Shown piece after piece: positions 33,705 to 55,700 of a stretch of DNA of 64,000 bases. The position numbers and the translations under genes were made by a program. The notes beneath the pieces are model-generated. The model was given only the letters and a program-made list of their open reading frames with translations. It had not been told where the DNA came from and searched no databases. The stretch is from the NCBI RefSeq assembly GCF_023806465.1, contig NZ_JAMSLS010000007.1, positions 1 through 64,000 on the forward strand, read 5' to 3'. The stretch's first letter is position 1, and every line of letters begins with the position of its first letter. This DNA is from Thermomicrobium sp. CFH 73360. Its GTDB lineage: Bacteria; Chloroflexota; Chloroflexia; Thermomicrobiales; Thermomicrobiaceae.

Positions 33705-35375
33705 TTACTGCCAGCGTGGCGTGCGGAGGACTGCCCCCTCGGACGCCGAACTCACGAGCGCCGCGTACCGGGCAAAGACGCCATTCGTGAAGCGTGGAGC
33801 TGGCGGCGACCAGCTTGCTCGCCGCTCGGCGAGTTCAGCATCCGATACCTCGAGATCAATGCGCCGGTTTTCCACATCGATGACGATCGTGTCCCCATCT
33901 CGCACGAAGGCAATGGGACCACCCACCGGGGCTTCTGGTGCCACATGCCCAACCATGAGACCCTTGGTGCCGCCAGAGAACCGCCCGTCGGTGACCAAGG
34001 CAACGTGTGGTCCGAGCCCTTCGCCGACAATCGCTGCAGTGATACCGAGCATTTCCCGCATGCCGGGACCGCCCTTTGGCCCCTCATATCGGATGACCAC
34101 CACGTCTCCAGGTTTAATTTGCTGGTTCAGCACGGCTTGCATCGCCTGTTCTTCAGCATCGAAGACGCGCGCGGTACCGCGGAAATACATCTGCTCCGTT
34201 CCGGCGACCTTGAGGACCGCACCTTCCGGAGCCAGTGACCCTCGCAGAATCACAAGTCCACCGTGCGGCTTCAACGGATTGGACGGATGGTAGACGACTG
34301 GCTGGCCAGGCGCCTCCTGGGCATCCGCTACTGCCTCGGCGAGTGTCTCACCTGTAACAAGTCGCTGATTTCCATCGACAAGTCCAGCCTCGAGCAACCG
34401 CTTCACAACCAGCTTTGTACCCCCGGCCTTGTAGAGGCTCCATGCGACATACTTGCCCCAAGGCTTGAGATCAGCGATCACCGGTGTGCGCCGGCTAATC
34501 TCATCGAATTCGTCAATACTCAGCGGGATTCCGAGTTCGTGAGCAATCGCCATGAGATGGAGCACCGCATTTGTTGAGCCACCCGTCGCCGCCACCGCCG
34601 CGATCGCATTCCGGAGCGACGTCTTGGTGATGAAGTCACGCGGCATCCGGTTCGCTCGCACAACCTCCATGAAACGGCGACCGGCCTCACGCGTTGCTTC
34701 AGCCTTTTCCGGCGCCACCGCCGGAATCGCGTTGTAGCCCATCGGAGAAAGCCCTAGGACTTCTAAGGCCATTGCCATCGTGTTCGCCGTGTACTGGCCA
34801 CCACAAGCACCGGGGCCCGGAATCGCTCGGCGCTCGATCTCCTGGAGCTCCTCGAGCGTAATCTTCCCAGCCGCGTATGCGCCGACCGCCTCGAAGACCT
34901 CAACGATCGTCAGCTCTCGGTCACGCCAATGGCCAGGCGCGATCGAGCCGCCGTACAGCACCATGCCCGGAACGCCAGCTCGGATCACCCCCATTGCTCC
35001 ACCAGGGATCGTCTTATCGCAGGAGACGAGAGCGACGATCGCGTCGAACTGGTACCCAAACGCCATGAGCTCGATCGAGTCGGCGATTACCTCGCGGCTA
35101 ATCAGCGAGGCTTTCATCGCCTCAGTCCCCATCGAGATCGCGTCGTTCACTGCAACTGTGTTGAACTCGACGGGCACCCCTCCCGCTTCACGGATCCCCT
35201 CCCGGAGGTGCTGCGCAAGTTCGCGCAAGTGATAGTTACATGGCATCGCGTCGGTCCACGTATTAGCGATAGCAACGATCGGCTTCTCGAAGTCCTCGTC
35301 GCGGAACCCGACAGCTCGTAGCATCGCGCGCGCTGGTGCGCGGTCGATCCCATGCGTGATCCGTTCGCTCCGCAT
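33705..35375 (-). CDS. ilvD: Dihydroxy-acid dehydratase
   Basis: Iron-sulfur enzyme that dehydrates 2,3-dihydroxy-isovalerate and -methylvalerate, the third common step of Val/Ile/Leu synthesis. It is 556 aa from the ATG at 35375. Signatures are [31 protein letters not shown] (cluster Cys), [17 protein letters not shown] (cluster Cys) and [17 protein letters not shown]. Three cluster-ligand Cys are visible. It stands apart from ilvBNC at 52-56 kb, and I see no leader peptide in the 150 nt between it and the divergent gpmI. Confidence 0.96.
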
Positions 35376-35451
35376 CGTCCCTTCGACTCCTCTCCGGTCG
35401 TTCGTACGACGCTGGTTGGCATTGTACTGCTGGAGTCGCATTTTGTGCTGT

Positions 35452-35481
35452 TTGCCGCAAGCAGCTTCCGATGTCTACTAT
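35452..35481 (+). promoter_or_regulatory. Candidate gpmI promoter
   Basis: TTGCCG (35452-35457), 18 nt and TACTAT (35476-35481) lie 45 nt upstream of the gpmI GTG. Both hexamers are imperfect. Confidence 0.4.
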
Positions 35482-35525
35482 GAGCAGAGCAATCGTGTTT
35501 GTGCGCGGGAGGGAGAGGACAAGCA

Positions 35526-37082
35526 GTGGAGCAACAACCATCCGTTTGCCTGGTCGTTTTGGACGGCTGGGCCATCGGGCCCGACTATCCCGGTAACGCC
35601 ATTCGCGCAGCACACACTCCGGTCATGGATCGCCTCCAAGCCACCTACCCTATGACGTCATTGCGCTGCTGGGGACTCGACGTCGGACTTCCTGACGACC
35701 AGATGGGGAATTCGGAAGTCGGTCACCTCAACCTCGGAGCGGGCCGAGTTGTCTACCAGCTCATCACCCGTATTGACCTTGCCATTGAGGATGGCTCCTT
35801 CTTCGAAAACCAAGCCTTCCTGAAGGCGATCGACCGAGCCTGCCAGCCAGGCAGAACTCTCCATCTGCTCGGGCTTATTGGGGACGGCGGCGTCCATAGC
35901 CACCAACGTCACCTCTATGCCTTGCTCGAGCTCGCAGCGCGCGCCGGCGTCCCTCGTGTCGCGGTGCATGCGTTCACCGATGGCCGTGACACCTCCCCGA
36001 CCTCGGGTATCGAGCATCTGCGCGAACTCCTGAGCACGATGGAACGTCTCAAAACCGGCTTTATCGCCTCCATCAGTGGTCGCTATTACGCCATGGATCG
36101 GGACAAACGCTGGGATCGGACGCAGCAGGCCTACAACGCGATTGTGTGTGGGCAGGGCCGCACCGCTTTTAACCCTCTGCAAGCGATTGAACAAAGTTAC
36201 GCCGCGGGGGTTACCGACGAATTCATTGTTCCCACCGTAATCGTCGACTCCACCGGACGCCCCCGAGCGACGGTCCAGGACGGCGACGCGGTCATCTTCT
36301 TCAATTTTCGCGCCGATCGAGCGCGACAGTTGACATCCGCCCTGACCGATCCGGATTTCCGTGCTTTCGAACGCTGCCGTTGGCCGCGCGATATCGTAAT
36401 GGTCACCATGGCTGAGTACGAGCCGCATTTCCCAGTTCTGGTTGCCTTTGCACCGGATATCGTTCGGACACCGTTGGCGCGCGTCCTGTCAGAGGCTGGA
36501 CTCCGACAGTTCCATACCGCAGAGACCGAGAAATATGCCCACGTGACGTACTTCTTCAATGGAGGGCGAGAAGAACCCTTCCCTGGCGAGGAACGTGTCT
36601 TGGTCCCATCGCCCAAAGTACCGACATATGACCTTAAGCCGGAGATGAGTGCCCCCGAAGTCACCGACGTGGCTGTGGAGGCGATCCGGAGCGGAAAGTA
36701 TGCCTTTGTCCTCATCAACTATGCCAACCCAGACATGGTCGGGCATACCGGGGTCTTTGAGGCAGCAGTCAAAGCCGTCGAGTGTGTCGACCAGTGTGTT
36801 GGCCGGATCGAGGATGCAGTGCGATCAGTTGATGGATATCTCATCGTCACCGCCGACCATGGCAATGCTGACGAGATGCTGGTACCCGGAACGAACGAGG
36901 TGTGGACTGCACATACCAAGAATCCAGTTCCTTTCGTCCTCGTCGCACCTGAGCAGAGTCCTTATCGTCGCGTGACATTACGGAGCAGCGGTCGTCTCGC
37001 CGACGTCGCCCCAACGATTTTGCAACTCATGGGCCTTGAACAACCGGAGGAGATGACCGGGCAGAGCTTGATCCAACGGTAA
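35526..37082 (+). CDS. gpmI: 2,3-bisphosphoglycerate-independent phosphoglycerate mutase
   Basis: Manganese enzyme interconverting 3- and 2-phosphoglycerate in glycolysis. It is 518 aa from the GTG at 35526, with GGGAGGGAGAGGA just upstream. The alkaline-phosphatase superfamily signatures are VVLDGWAIG, the phosphoserine site PDDQMGNSEVGHLNLGAGR, HAFTDGRDTSPTSG, SGRYYAMDRDKRWDR, NFRADRARQLT, NYANPDMVGHTG and TADHGNADEM. It is separated by a 336-nt non-coding stretch from eno, which faces it from the opposite strand, so the two consecutive glycolytic genes are not one operon. Confidence 0.96.
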   Translation: MEQQPSVCLVVLDGWAIGPDYPGNAIRAAHTPVMDRLQATYPMTSLRCWGLDVGLPDDQMGNSEVGHLNLGAGRVVYQLITRIDLAIEDGSFFENQAFLKAIDRACQPGRTLHLLGLIGDGGVHSHQRHLYALLELAARAGVPRVAVHAFTDGRDTSPTSGIEHLRELLSTMERLKTGFIASISGRYYAMDRDKRWDRTQQAYNAIVCGQGRTAFNPLQAIEQSYAAGVTDEFIVPTVIVDSTGRPRATVQDGDAVIFFNFRADRARQLTSALTDPDFRAFERCRWPRDIVMVTMAEYEPHFPVLVAFAPDIVRTPLARVLSEAGLRQFHTAETEKYAHVTYFFNGGREEPFPGEERVLVPSPKVPTYDLKPEMSAPEVTDVAVEAIRSGKYAFVLINYANPDMVGHTGVFEAAVKAVECVDQCVGRIEDAVRSVDGYLIVTADHGNADEMLVPGTNEVWTAHTKNPVPFVLVAPEQSPYRRVTLRSSGRLADVAPTILQLMGLEQPEEMTGQSLIQR

Positions 37083-37184
37083 GCTGGGTAACCGCTATCC
37101 ATCGACTGACTCTGAAAGGCTGCTCCAAGCTCTCGAGGGCGTGGGATGCAACGAGTTACTGCTCTTCATCCACTGACCCCGAAA

Positions 37185-37220
37185 GGCCGTCGCAGGAACA
37201 CGACGGTGGCTGCGACGGCC
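37185..37220 (+). terminator. Terminator-like hairpin downstream of gpmI
   Basis: GGCCGTCGCA (37185-37194) pairs perfectly with TGCGACGGCC (37211-37220), with a 16-nt loop. It lies 103 nt after gpmI and has no T-tract. Confidence 0.4.
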
Positions 37221-37263
37221 TGACAAGACTCATAAGTTACCGATCCGCCACGTAGCCATGAAG

Positions 37264-52017: not shown

Positions 52018-52046
52018 TTGACACGAGGCGACTCCTCTGGTAGGCT
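52018..52046 (+). promoter_or_regulatory. ilvBNC promoter
   Basis: TTGACA (52018-52023), 17 nt and TAGGCT (52041-52046) form a good promoter. The expected start near 52053 leaves about 30 nt before the leader-peptide ATG. Confidence 0.72.
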
Positions 52047-52082
52047 GCGAGAGGGACAAAGAGCAGTCCCGGGTGGAGTTCC

Positions 52083-52235
52083 ATGAAACCGAGGCGGCGG
52101 TCACAAGGTTTGAGAGACAGCAACCAGCGACCAGCTAGTATTGAGGGTGTGTTCGCCACCTCAGCCTGGACGTGCTTCCTCAGCCTCGTAGTAGTAATTC
52201 TCATCCTTACGGGCCTGCCGCTGGTGGGAGGCTGA
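52083..52235 (+). CDS. ilvBNC leader peptide (branched-chain amino-acid sensor)
   Basis: A 50-codon ORF with a good ribosome-binding site (GGTGGAG 5-6 nt before the ATG), too short for usual gene calling. It starts MKPRRRSQG and ends GLPLVGG. Eight consecutive codons at 52185-52208 encode Leu-Val-Val-Val-Ile-Leu-Ile-Leu, and the tail adds Leu and Val. Such runs of the end-product amino acids are the hallmark of ribosome-mediated attenuation leaders upstream of ilv operons. The run begins at the 3' end of RNA segment 1, so a ribosome starved for Val, Ile or Leu would mask that segment. No independent function is expected. Confidence 0.88.
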   Translation: MKPRRRSQGLRDSNQRPASIEGVFATSAWTCFLSLVVVILILTGLPLVGG

Positions 52236-52305
52236 GCGAGCGCGGACCAAGACAGTGAACAAAGACGAAGCGCATCGCGAGCCTCCCCAGCGGGAGGCTC
52301 GCGAT
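52179..52305 (+). promoter_or_regulatory. Transcription attenuator of ilvBNC
   Basis: Segment 1, CTCAGCCTC (52179-52187), can pair with GAGGCTGAG of segment 2 (52228-52236). Segment 2, CCGCTG plus GGGAGGCT (52218-52223 and 52226-52233), can instead pair with AGCCTCCC plus CAGCGG of segment 3/loop (52280-52293): an antiterminator of 14 bp with a 2-nt bulge. Segment 3, ATCGCGAGCCTCCC (52274-52287), pairs perfectly with segment 4, GGGAGGCTCGCGAT (52292-52305), around a CAGC loop. The 1:2 plus 3:4 and the 2:3 folds exclude each other. Segment 4 is followed by ATATCC, not a U-run, so the terminator is atypical. Confidence 0.82.
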
Positions 52306-52338
52306 ATATCCAGGGGTCACGAAGGGAGGTCAGGCGCA

Positions 52339-54075
52339 ATGGCAATTGAGACACGTGAGCGACAGCAGGTCAGGGAAGAACCGCAGCGCGAACCACAGCT
52401 CGGAGCGCACCTCGTGATGCAGGCCCTGGTGCGTGAAGGGGTGGAGGTCATTTTTGGCTATCCCGGCGGTGCCATTCTCCCTGTGTATGACGCGTTACCT
52501 TACTACCCAATTCATCATGTCCTGGTTCGACACGAGCAGTCCGCTGCGTTCGCCGCCGACGGTTATGCGCGAGCGACCGGTAAGGTGGGAGTTTGCATGG
52601 CCACCTCCGGCCCTGGGGCGACAAATTTGGTCACAGGGATCGCCAATGCCATGATGGACTCAATCCCCATCGTCGCCATTACCGGCCAGGTCCCGCAAAG
52701 CGTGATTGGGATGGATGCCTTCCAGGAAACAGACATTACCGGTATCACTTTGCCGATCACCAAATACAACATGGTGATCCGCAGCGTGGAGGAGATCGGC
52801 CCTGCAATTCAGAAGGCGTTCTACCTTGCTCGCTCTGGTCGCCCAGGACCTGTACTCATCGACATCCCCAAAGACGTCCAGCTCGCCAAGGGTTACCTTG
52901 CTCCACGCCAGGAACTTCATCTCCCTGGCTATCGCCCCACGATCGTGCCGCATCGACGGCAAATCCGACGCGCGGCCGAACTGATTCGCCAAGCCAAGCG
53001 TCCCCTCATCTTGGCTGGTCACGGCATCCTCGTGAGCGGAGCGACAGAGGAACTTGTGCGCTTTGCCGAACGCACGCAGATTCCGGTCGGCCTCACACTC
53101 CTGGGCATTAGTGGCTTCCCAGCTTCTCACCCGCTGTGCCTCGGAATGGTTGGGATGCATGGGCATGCCCACGCGAATCGCGCCATCCACGAGGCAGACC
53201 TGATCATCGGGATCGGGATGCGCTTTGACGATCGAGTGACAGGCCGACCCAGCGAGTTCGCGCCCAATGCGAAGATCATTCACATCGATATCGATCCGGC
53301 AGAGATCGGCAAGGTGCTTAAGACAGAAGTGCCGGTTGTCGGCGATGCACGCGAAGCGCTGCGCCTCCTGCTCGAAGAACTTGAACCGCTGGAGCATGAC
53401 GACTGGCTGAGCCTGATCCGAAGCTGGTACCGGCCAATCCGCACCGAGCCATCAGGACCGAATGGCATCCTCCAGCCGCAGTACGTCATCGCGCGGCTCC
53501 ACGCACTCACGGAGGGGAGAGCGATCGTCACGACTGATGTGGGCCAGCATCAAATGTGGACGGCCCAGCTGTACAAGTGCGACATCCCGCAGCAGTGGAT
53601 CAGTTCCGGCGGTCTGGGTGCCATGGGGTTCGGCGTCCCCTCCGCAATGGGAGCCGCGATCGGGCGCCCTGAGGCCGAGGTGTGGGCGGTCGTCGGCGAC
53701 GGTGGTGTGCAAATGACCTTGAACGAGTTCGCGACGATTGTCGACGAACAACTCAACGTCAAAGTGGCGATCATCAACAATGGCTACCTCGGCATGGTCC
53801 GGCAGTGGCAGCAGCTCTTCCACAACCGAAACTATTCGGAGACGCCGATCTCGAGCCCGGACTACGTCCTGCTGGGTCAGGCCTACCGGATGGCAGCACG
53901 GCGGGTCACACGCCCGGGCGAGGTCGACGAGGCCATCCTCTGGGCCCGTTCTTTCCGCGGACCCGCACTCATCGAGTTCGTTGTGAATCAGGAAGAGAAC
54001 GTGTTCCCGATGATCCCGTCCGGTGGAACGTTCCGGGACATGATTGACGAGTACCAGGTTGAGGGGGAATGGTGA
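52339..54075 (+). CDS. ilvB: Acetolactate synthase large (catalytic) subunit
   Basis: Thiamine-diphosphate enzyme making 2-acetolactate or 2-aceto-2-hydroxybutyrate, the first common step of Val, Leu and Ile synthesis. It is 578 aa from the ATG at 52339, with GGGAGGT upstream; the frame extends back into the attenuator but those codons are not used. The PYR domain has IFGYPGGAILPVYDAL and the catalytic Glu in LVRHEQSAAFAADGYARA. The FAD/central domain has GMVGMHGHAHANRAI. The PP domain has the ThDP motif VVGDGGVQMTLNEFATIVDE through NNGYLGMVRQWQ. It overlaps ilvN by 7 nt. Confidence 0.97.
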   Translation: MAIETRERQQVREEPQREPQLGAHLVMQALVREGVEVIFGYPGGAILPVYDALPYYPIHHVLVRHEQSAAFAADGYARATGKVGVCMATSGPGATNLVTGIANAMMDSIPIVAITGQVPQSVIGMDAFQETDITGITLPITKYNMVIRSVEEIGPAIQKAFYLARSGRPGPVLIDIPKDVQLAKGYLAPRQELHLPGYRPTIVPHRRQIRRAAELIRQAKRPLILAGHGILVSGATEELVRFAERTQIPVGLTLLGISGFPASHPLCLGMVGMHGHAHANRAIHEADLIIGIGMRFDDRVTGRPSEFAPNAKIIHIDIDPAEIGKVLKTEVPVVGDAREALRLLLEELEPLEHDDWLSLIRSWYRPIRTEPSGPNGILQPQYVIARLHALTEGRAIVTTDVGQHQMWTAQLYKCDIPQQWISSGGLGAMGFGVPSAMGAAIGRPEAEVWAVVGDGGVQMTLNEFATIVDEQLNVKVAIINNGYLGMVRQWQQLFHNRNYSETPISSPDYVLLGQAYRMAARRVTRPGEVDEAILWARSFRGPALIEFVVNQEENVFPMIPSGGTFRDMIDEYQVEGEW

Positions 54076-54596
54076 GCGTGCGAAGTCATACACTCGTCGT
54101 GCTAGTCGAAGACAAGCCAGGAGTGATGAATCGGATCGTCAGTCTCTTCCGCCAGCGCGGTTTTAACATCGATTCGATCGCAGTTGGCCATTCGGAAACG
54201 CCTGGCCTCTCGCGCATCACACTCGTGGCGCAGGGTGACGACCGGAAGATCGAACAACTTGTCAAGCAATTATATAAAATTCTTGAGGTGATCAAGATCA
54301 CAGATGTGACTGACGAGAATCTCATCCAGCGCGAGCTTGCGCTCATCAAGGTGGCGGCAACTGATCGGAATCGAAGTGACATCATGCGGTTGGTCACCGA
54401 TGTCTATCAGGCACGCATCGTCGATGCAACCCCAGATTCGCTCATCATTGAGGTGACGGGACCGCCAGACAAAATTGATTCCTTGATCACGATGGTCCGC
54501 TCCTACGGAATTAAGGAATTGGCACGCTCCGGCGTCATTGCGATGGCACGCGGTACGCGTGCAGTTGCGACGGTTCCGCAGCCCGTTGTAGCATGA
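54069..54596 (+). CDS. ilvN: Acetolactate synthase small (regulatory) subunit
   Basis: Regulatory subunit that activates IlvB and confers valine feedback inhibition. It is 175 aa. The N-terminal ACT domain (about 5-80) has LVEDKPGVMNRIVSLFRQRG and FNIDSIAVGHSETPGLSRIT. The second, C-terminal ACT-like domain (about 85-160) has ELALIKVAATDRNRSDIMRL and LIIEVTGPPDKIDSLI. This long two-domain form corresponds to IlvH/IlvN of valine-sensitive enzymes. The ATG overlaps the ilvB stop. It lies 45 nt before ilvC. Confidence 0.95.
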   Translation: MVSVRSHTLVVLVEDKPGVMNRIVSLFRQRGFNIDSIAVGHSETPGLSRITLVAQGDDRKIEQLVKQLYKILEVIKITDVTDENLIQRELALIKVAATDRNRSDIMRLVTDVYQARIVDATPDSLIIEVTGPPDKIDSLITMVRSYGIKELARSGVIAMARGTRAVATVPQPVVA

Positions 54597-54641: not shown

Positions 54642-55649
54642 ATGGCGACGATCTATTACGACAAAGATGCCGATCTGCAGTTCCTGGCCGGCAAAACGGT
54701 GGCGATTCTCGGCTACGGGAGCCAGGGGCATGCCCATGCCCAGAATCTTCGTGATAGCGGTGTGCAGGTCGTTGTGGGTCTCCACGAGGGCAGCCGCAGC
54801 CGGGAACGAGCCCAAGCCGACGGCTTTGAAGTCTTGACACCGCGTGAAGCAGCAGCCCGCGCAGACATCATCTCCATGCTCATGCCGGACCACGTCCAGA
54901 AAGGCGTGTACGAGGAGAGCGTCGCTCCTGAACTCCGGCCAGGGAAGCTTCTTATGTTCGCCCACGGCTTCAATATCCACTATGGACGGATCGTTCCTCC
55001 GGCTGATGTCGACGTCACCATGGTAGCGCCCAAGAGTCCAGGGCACATCTTGCGTGATCTCTTCGTCCAGGGGATCGGTGTCCCGGCACTCTTGGCAGTG
55101 CATCAGGACGCGAGTGGCCAAGCCAAACAGATCGCGTTGGCCTACGCGAAGGGACTCGGGTGCACGAAGGCGGGAGTGATTGAGACGACATTCAAGGAGG
55201 AAACCGAGACCGACCTCTTCGGCGAACAAGCCGTGCTCTGCGGAGGTGTGAGCCATCTCATCCAGGCCGGTTTCGAGACGCTGGTCGAGGCCGGTTATCA
55301 GCCTGAGATCGCTTATTTCGAAGTGCTGAACGAACTCAAGCTGATCGTCGACCTGATCTACGAAGGCGGTCTCAAGTTCATGCGCTACTCCGTGAGTGAT
55401 ACCGCCGAGTACGGCGACTACGTGAGTGGTCCAAAGATTATCGACGATCACGTCCGGGAAACCATGCACCAGATCCTTCAGGACATCCAGACTGGTCGCT
55501 TTGCGCAGCAGTGGATCGCGGAAAATGAGGCCGGCCGGCCGAACTTCTACCGACTCCGCCAGGAACACCTTCAGCATCCGATTGAGGAGGTCGGCGAGCG
55601 TCTCCGCGCCATGATGCCCTGGCTCAAGCAACGCCAGATCCCATCTTGA
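54642..55649 (+). CDS. ilvC: Ketol-acid reductoisomerase, class I
   Basis: NADPH-dependent second enzyme of the branched-chain pathway, rearranging and reducing acetolactate. It is 335 aa, class I length. The Rossmann motif is [17 protein letters not shown]; the phosphate-binding loop following [13 protein letters not shown] carries Ser/Arg residues typical of NADPH preference. The catalytic knotted domain has [37 protein letters not shown] and [19 protein letters not shown] with the metal-binding Asp/Glu residues. A strong intrinsic terminator follows, ending the ilvBNC operon. Confidence 0.97.
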
Positions 55650-55663
55650 CGCGGGAGGGGTTC

Positions 55664-55700
55664 AAGAGTGCTCCGGGAAAATCCCCGGAGCACTCTTTTT
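55664..55700 (+). terminator. Intrinsic terminator of ilvBNC
   Basis: AAGAGTGCTCCGGG (55664-55677) pairs perfectly with CCCGGAGCACTCTT (55684-55697) around a 6-nt loop and runs into TTTTT. It shows that classical U-tract terminators do exist in this genome. Confidence 0.92.

Follow-up and report, generated by a model that had tools for sequence, protein, structure and literature searches.

Introduction

The enterobacterial attenuators of the ilv, leu and trp operons have a short leader ORF with control codons for the amino acids of the pathway, and their leader RNA can form mutually exclusive 1:2, 2:3 and 3:4 pairings, with the stop codon of the ORF located in segment 2. An overview of ribosome-mediated attenuators is available (PMC1183508), and an origin in the gamma-proteobacteria has been suggested for amino-acid attenuator motifs (PMC3766115). 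Actinobacterial ilvB leaders (PMC1262725) and the ilvB-II motif of Corynebacterium (PMC10272879) consist of a short Leu/Val/Ile-rich ORF followed by a hairpin, and the ilv-leu operon of Staphylococcus aureus has a leucine-rich attenuator peptide where Bacillus subtilis has a T-box (PMC5794164). Known or predicted ilv leader-peptide attenuators include those of enterobacteria, Actinobacteria and S. aureus; our search of the open-access literature found no description of such an attenuator in Chloroflexota, and priority is uncertain.

Here, we analysed a 64,000-nucleotide stretch of DNA (the window) that had been guessed from its sequence to be of Chloroflexota/Thermomicrobia-like origin and that indeed comes from Thermomicrobium (Chloroflexota). 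Its ilvBNC operon is preceded by a leader that we consider, with fairly high confidence and on the basis of its sequence, to be a ribosome-mediated attenuator sensing charged Leu, Val and Ile tRNA. The leader shares with the enterobacterial ilv, leu and trp attenuators the control-codon ORF, the exclusive 2:3 and 3:4 pairings and the stop codon within segment 2, but it occurs in another phylum and its family has no U-tract after the 3:4 hairpin. As in Actinobacteria and Corynebacterium, the short ORF and the hairpin stand directly before ilvBNC, whereas the terminators of those leaders have been described with poly-U, and the conserved pairing and a bias towards the Val codon GTA are specific to the order of Thermomicrobium. 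In Streptomyces coelicolor, changes of the control codons in a similar-looking ilvB leader gave no response (PMC1262725), which by analogy counts against the attenuator reading.

Results and Discussion

Anatomy of the ilvBNC leader

The original prediction described a promoter, a ribosome-binding site and a 50-codon ORF with eight consecutive Leu/Val/Ile codons, all of which are present where it had placed them. The features of the leader and of the operon are as follows, in window coordinates.

52018..52046, + strand: promoter, TTGACA (52018-52023), 17-nt spacer and TAGGCT (52041-52046), read from the sequence
52071..52078, + strand: probable ribosome-binding site of the leader ORF, GGGTGGAG, judged from the sequence ahead of the ATG at 52083
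52083..52235, + strand: leader ORF of 50 codons with ATG at 52083 and terminal sequence LSLVVVILILTGLPLVGG, from the ORF translation
52175..52187, + strand: segment 1, partner of segment 2, from the ribosome-free fold (z -3.1 in the window)
52185..52208, + strand: control codons CTC GTA GTA GTA ATT CTC ATC CTT (LVVVILIL), read from the sequence
52210..52224, + strand: extra arm with predicted partner 52287-52301 (hairpin loop and segment 4), from a fold of 52203-52310
52226..52243, + strand: segment 2, GGGAGGCTGAGCGAGCGC, containing the leader stop codon, from the 2:3 duplex test
52270..52287, + strand: segment 3, GCGCATCGCGAGCCTCCC, from the duplex test and the family alignment
52274..52305, + strand: 3:4 attenuator hairpin of 14 perfect bp, -29 kcal/mol, without U-tract, from the fold and the family alignment
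52292..52305, + strand: segment 4, GGGAGGCTCGCGAT, from the sequence and the hairpin stem
52321..52329, + strand: ilvB ribosome-binding site, GAAGGGAGG, with the SD GGGAGG from 52324, outside the 3:4 hairpin, from the sequence
52339..54075, + strand: ilvB, acetolactate synthase large subunit, ATG at 52339, TIGR00118 above cut-off
54069..54596, + strand: ilvN, acetolactate synthase small subunit, TIGR00119 above cut-off
54642..55649, + strand: ilvC, ketol-acid reductoisomerase, TIGR00465 above cut-off
55666..55700, + strand: operon-end terminator with a hairpin at about 55666-55695 and T5, from the sequence, in contrast to the leader hairpin

Conservation and chance controls

Relative to the first sequence of the query alignment, the best named match of the window ilvB was that of the Thermomicrobium MAG L038 (97% identity), and the ilvB of the Sphaerobacter MAG L039 showed 75% identity. 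We searched for ilvB in 60 relatives. A branched-chain leader ORF and a GCCTCC/GGAGGC hairpin precede ilvB in all 18 loci of the window's family that have upstream DNA and in nearly the whole order, so that the small ORF and the stems, whose lack of conservation had been named beforehand as a refuting result, are in fact kept. In these loci, the ORF that contains the dense L/I/V run terminates some 90-360 nt upstream of the ilvB match. Upstream of the run, TTGACA with TAnnnT at a distance of 17-18 nt was found in each of the 20 loci from the window's family and family f2. The C-terminal run is kept in all family loci while the N-terminal part and the length of the ORF vary; in the sister family f3, the leaders have the common peptide motif LVLIxLPxGS, and CTCCCG...CGGGAG could form an inner hairpin there.

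ORFs and hairpins are abundant in GC-rich DNA, and a chance combination of the two might be suspected. This explanation is contradicted by the conservation and by the shuffle controls, and we regard it as scarcely credible: the 8/8 L/I/V run was reached by none of 100 shuffles of the region upstream of the window ilvB, and a short ORF with 7 of 8 L/I/V occurred in only 3 of 922 gene upstream regions (about 1.25 Mb of the window genome), the window leader included.

Alternative RNA pairings

The three pairings 1:2, 2:3 and 3:4 had been proposed for the leader, and the perfect 14-bp 3:4 stem was recovered as described; the 2:3 pairing, on the other hand, comprises 8+4+4 bp interrupted by a bulge and a small internal loop, which differs slightly from the 14 bp with a 2-nt bulge that had been proposed. 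The 2:3 duplex of the window was stronger than all 100 shuffles (z -3.9), and at all 18 family loci it was more stable than dinucleotide shuffles, with z from -2.5 to -5.8; order-wide, z was below -2 in 25 of 44 loci. In the family alignment, 94% (2:3) and 100% (3:4) of the paired cells were able to pair, compared with 27-56% for slid versions, and both the folds and the alignment show the antiterminator 2:3 and the hairpin 3:4 to be mutually exclusive. The expected covariation in the stems was found at one position, where a compensatory triple change from G-C-G to C-G-C affects all three segments. Because it is confined to one genus, it counts as a single event, and because most of the other stem pairs never vary, little information can be drawn from them.

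When folding was simulated with a ribosome on the run, segment 3 paired with segment 2 in 23/23 loci. In the ribosome-free fold, the control region sequestered segment 2 in only about half of these 23 loci, and the 1:2 step is therefore less certain; the 1:2 pairing is present in the minimum-energy fold of the window without a ribosome and is weak in most relatives. With the ribosome stalled on the run and the RNA behind it hidden, the extra arm at 52210-52224 is predicted to leave segments 3 and 4 both held.

From the anatomy, the conservation, the alternative pairings and the codon bias, all of which are read directly from the DNA, we infer the following course of stalling, termination and response to amino acids. 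Transcription of the leader would start at its own promoter, and the 50-codon ORF would be translated. With branched-chain amino acids in ample supply, the ribosome would proceed to the stop codon that lies within segment 2, allowing the 3:4 hairpin to form, and most polymerases would halt before ilvB. If charged tRNA became scarce, the ribosome would stall on the L/V/I run and cover segment 1, whereupon segments 2 and 3 would pair, the 3:4 hairpin would not form and ilvBNC would be transcribed. The 2:3 state is perhaps aided by pairing of 52210-52224 with the hairpin loop and segment 4.

Output of the leader and the missing U-tract

The longest T run after the arm of the window hairpin is 1, compared with T5 at the end of the same operon, in agreement with the original prediction that the leader terminator lacks a U-tract although the operon end has one. 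At least four T after the GGAGG arm were found in none of the 18 loci of the window's family and in neither of the two f2 loci, but in 24 of 26 f3 loci by script and in 26/26 by eye (at the two exceptions, L037 and L162, the script had picked another site, and T4-T5 or more are seen by eye); the f3 hairpins carry T4-T6. Because the U-tract was looked for and is missing, we do not class the leader as a full classical attenuator.

Three outputs can be weighed on this basis. An effect of the hairpin on ilvB translation, one of the mechanisms first considered, would fit the short distance of 33 nt between the end of the window hairpin and the ilvB start and the complementarity of segment 3 to the GGGAGG ribosome site. 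The ribosome site does not lie within the 3:4 hairpin, however, and in f3 the hairpin carries a U-tract and ends about 125-300 nt before the ilvB match, which is too distant to mask the ilvB ribosome site; control of translation in place of transcription is thus very improbable.

The same leader and the same sensing could also lead to Rho-dependent termination or to a long polymerase pause, with a hairpin that does not itself terminate. The absence of the U-tract throughout the window's family and the presence of Rho in the window genome (3.06 Mb) speak for such an output, which we nonetheless consider unlikely, since the hairpin is a homologue of the T4-T6 terminator of f3 and its stem has been kept with 100% pairing.

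Transcription termination at the hairpin itself is the output that we prefer. In the window's family, the hairpin lacks the U-tract that its f3 homologue carries, so that release probably depends on the strength of the GC stem, perhaps together with NusA/NusG or Rho. The distribution of the U-tract suggests that transcription termination would be the older output and that the U-tract was lost in the clade of the window; that this loss tracks thermophily is an idea. Since the homologous hairpin occurs with and without a U-tract inside one order, whether attenuation needs a U-tract can be tested directly.

At the ends of genes in the window genome, many strong hairpins, which are putative terminators, likewise have weak U-tracts, and a genome-wide U-tract comparison of three genomes gave counts that are small and noisy. 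A U-poor example in the window genome is found on contig C12 (about 72047-73964), where two convergent genes are separated by a perfect 16-bp hairpin that has a weak U-tract on either side.

Sister leaders upstream of citramalate synthase and leuA

We built a covariance model of the family element and ran it on the window genome and its relatives. The second match in the window genome was weak (contig C12, 64574-64673, minus strand, E 0.08) and lies upstream of a gene identified as citramalate synthase (TIGR00977). In Sphaerobacter-like genomes, the model matched the region upstream of leuA. The two elements in the window genome (G000) are as follows.

G000:C12:64801-64560, - strand: leader carrying the Ile run AIAIIAII upstream of citramalate synthase (locus L313), covariance-model match
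G000:C1:703650-704105 (locus L338, positions 1045-1500): leuA tandem with an Rfam T-box at about 703685-703909, a leader from 703942 and a hairpin at 704052-704071

The citramalate-synthase leader (VAQHLNAAIAIIAIIRPRVAG...) has the promoter TTGACA-N17-TAGGCT and a hairpin without a U-tract, and an Ile-rich run with a promoter-like match was found at all 14 citramalate-synthase loci of the family with upstream DNA, the window genome included. A scan for amino-acid runs as a sign of further leaders was rejected, its matches being chance-like once several targets are translated; the citramalate-synthase leader had escaped it, as the called start of that gene extends into the leader.

We dropped regulation of leuA by a T-box alone because leader peptides were found behind the T-box. 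At L310-L312, L333-L335, L337 and L339, too, leuA is preceded by a T-box and, behind it, by a Leu leader peptide that has a hairpin of its own; the Sphaerobacter-like genomes have a stronger Leu run than Thermomicrobium, where it is modest (SLLQLSL). A comparable succession is reportedly found in the B. subtilis rtpA (anti-TRAP) leader, which combines a T-box with a Trp leader peptide (said to be the work of Chen and Yanofsky, 2003 and 2004). In both cases, the leader peptide behind the T-box is for the same amino acid as the T-box, but the rtpA peptide is said to control translation initiation, whereas the hairpin behind the leuA peptide resembles a second, Leu-specific attenuator of transcription. 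The S. aureus ilv-leu system, unlike leuA of Thermomicrobium, is a single operon that is also under CodY and has no T-box tandem.

The 2:3 shuffle test was not significant in most citramalate-synthase and leuA leaders, so that their mechanism is argued from their likeness to the ilvB leader and from the match between codons and pathway. By this analogy, both would be attenuator-like, with control codons that match the pathway. It is possible, though we propose it tentatively, that the Thermomicrobiaceae have a branched-chain attenuator regulon, with control codons specific to the pathway (L/V/I for ilvB, I for citramalate synthase and L for leuA), a double gate of T-box and then leader at leuA, and termination free of U-tracts.

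Codon choice in the control runs

In the control runs, 94% of the Val codons (n=83) are GTA, compared with 2% among the 834 Val codons of 17 ilvB genes from these loci; Ile is encoded by ATT in 64% of cases, compared with 14% in ilvB. All three Val codons of the window's run are GTA, a codon that accounts for 7.4% of Val codons in the window genome. Because GTT never occurs in the control runs, a general preference for A/T does not account for the GTA bias. GTA is also used by Chloroflexia leaders and GTC by some other lineages. The bias may reflect a constraint on the RNA sequence rather than on the codon. It also offers a possible test of isoacceptor-level sensing at attenuators, for which theory exists (PMC1183508).

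The hydrophobic C-terminal stretch of the small ORF would also fit a functional small membrane peptide to which the hairpin is unrelated. Since the length and the N-terminal part of the ORF are variable, the run follows the pathway encoded downstream (Ile for citramalate synthase, Leu for leuA) and the GTA bias is a signal at the level of codons, we give this explanation almost no weight.

Leaders and T-boxes in other Chloroflexota

Within the window, no T-box (RF00230) was matched before ilvB, and none of the Rfam leader or ilvB-associated families was matched in a gathering scan of the window or in a relaxed scan of L001 and relatives. Leader candidates with hairpins were found before ilvB in other Chloroflexota, Litorilinea among them (L182, L187, L189, L193, L102, L188 and L124), several of them with U-tracts. 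Among 20 loci selected in other Chloroflexota, a T-box precedes ilvB in 8 (L142, L177, L181, L183, L186, L190, L202 and L203), a proportion that is not a frequency because the loci had been picked partly for a T-box-like look. The occurrence of T-boxes at ilvB beside leaders means that the phylum has two different tRNA-sensing devices at one gene. Taken with the leader system of the Thermomicrobiales and the candidates in other classes of the phylum, this points to a wider use or a repeated origin.

In the window genome, ilvB-like match sets with identical scores were also found on contig C2 (about 33841-37247) and on contig C35 (about 114039-117445), reflecting either a duplication or an assembly overlap.
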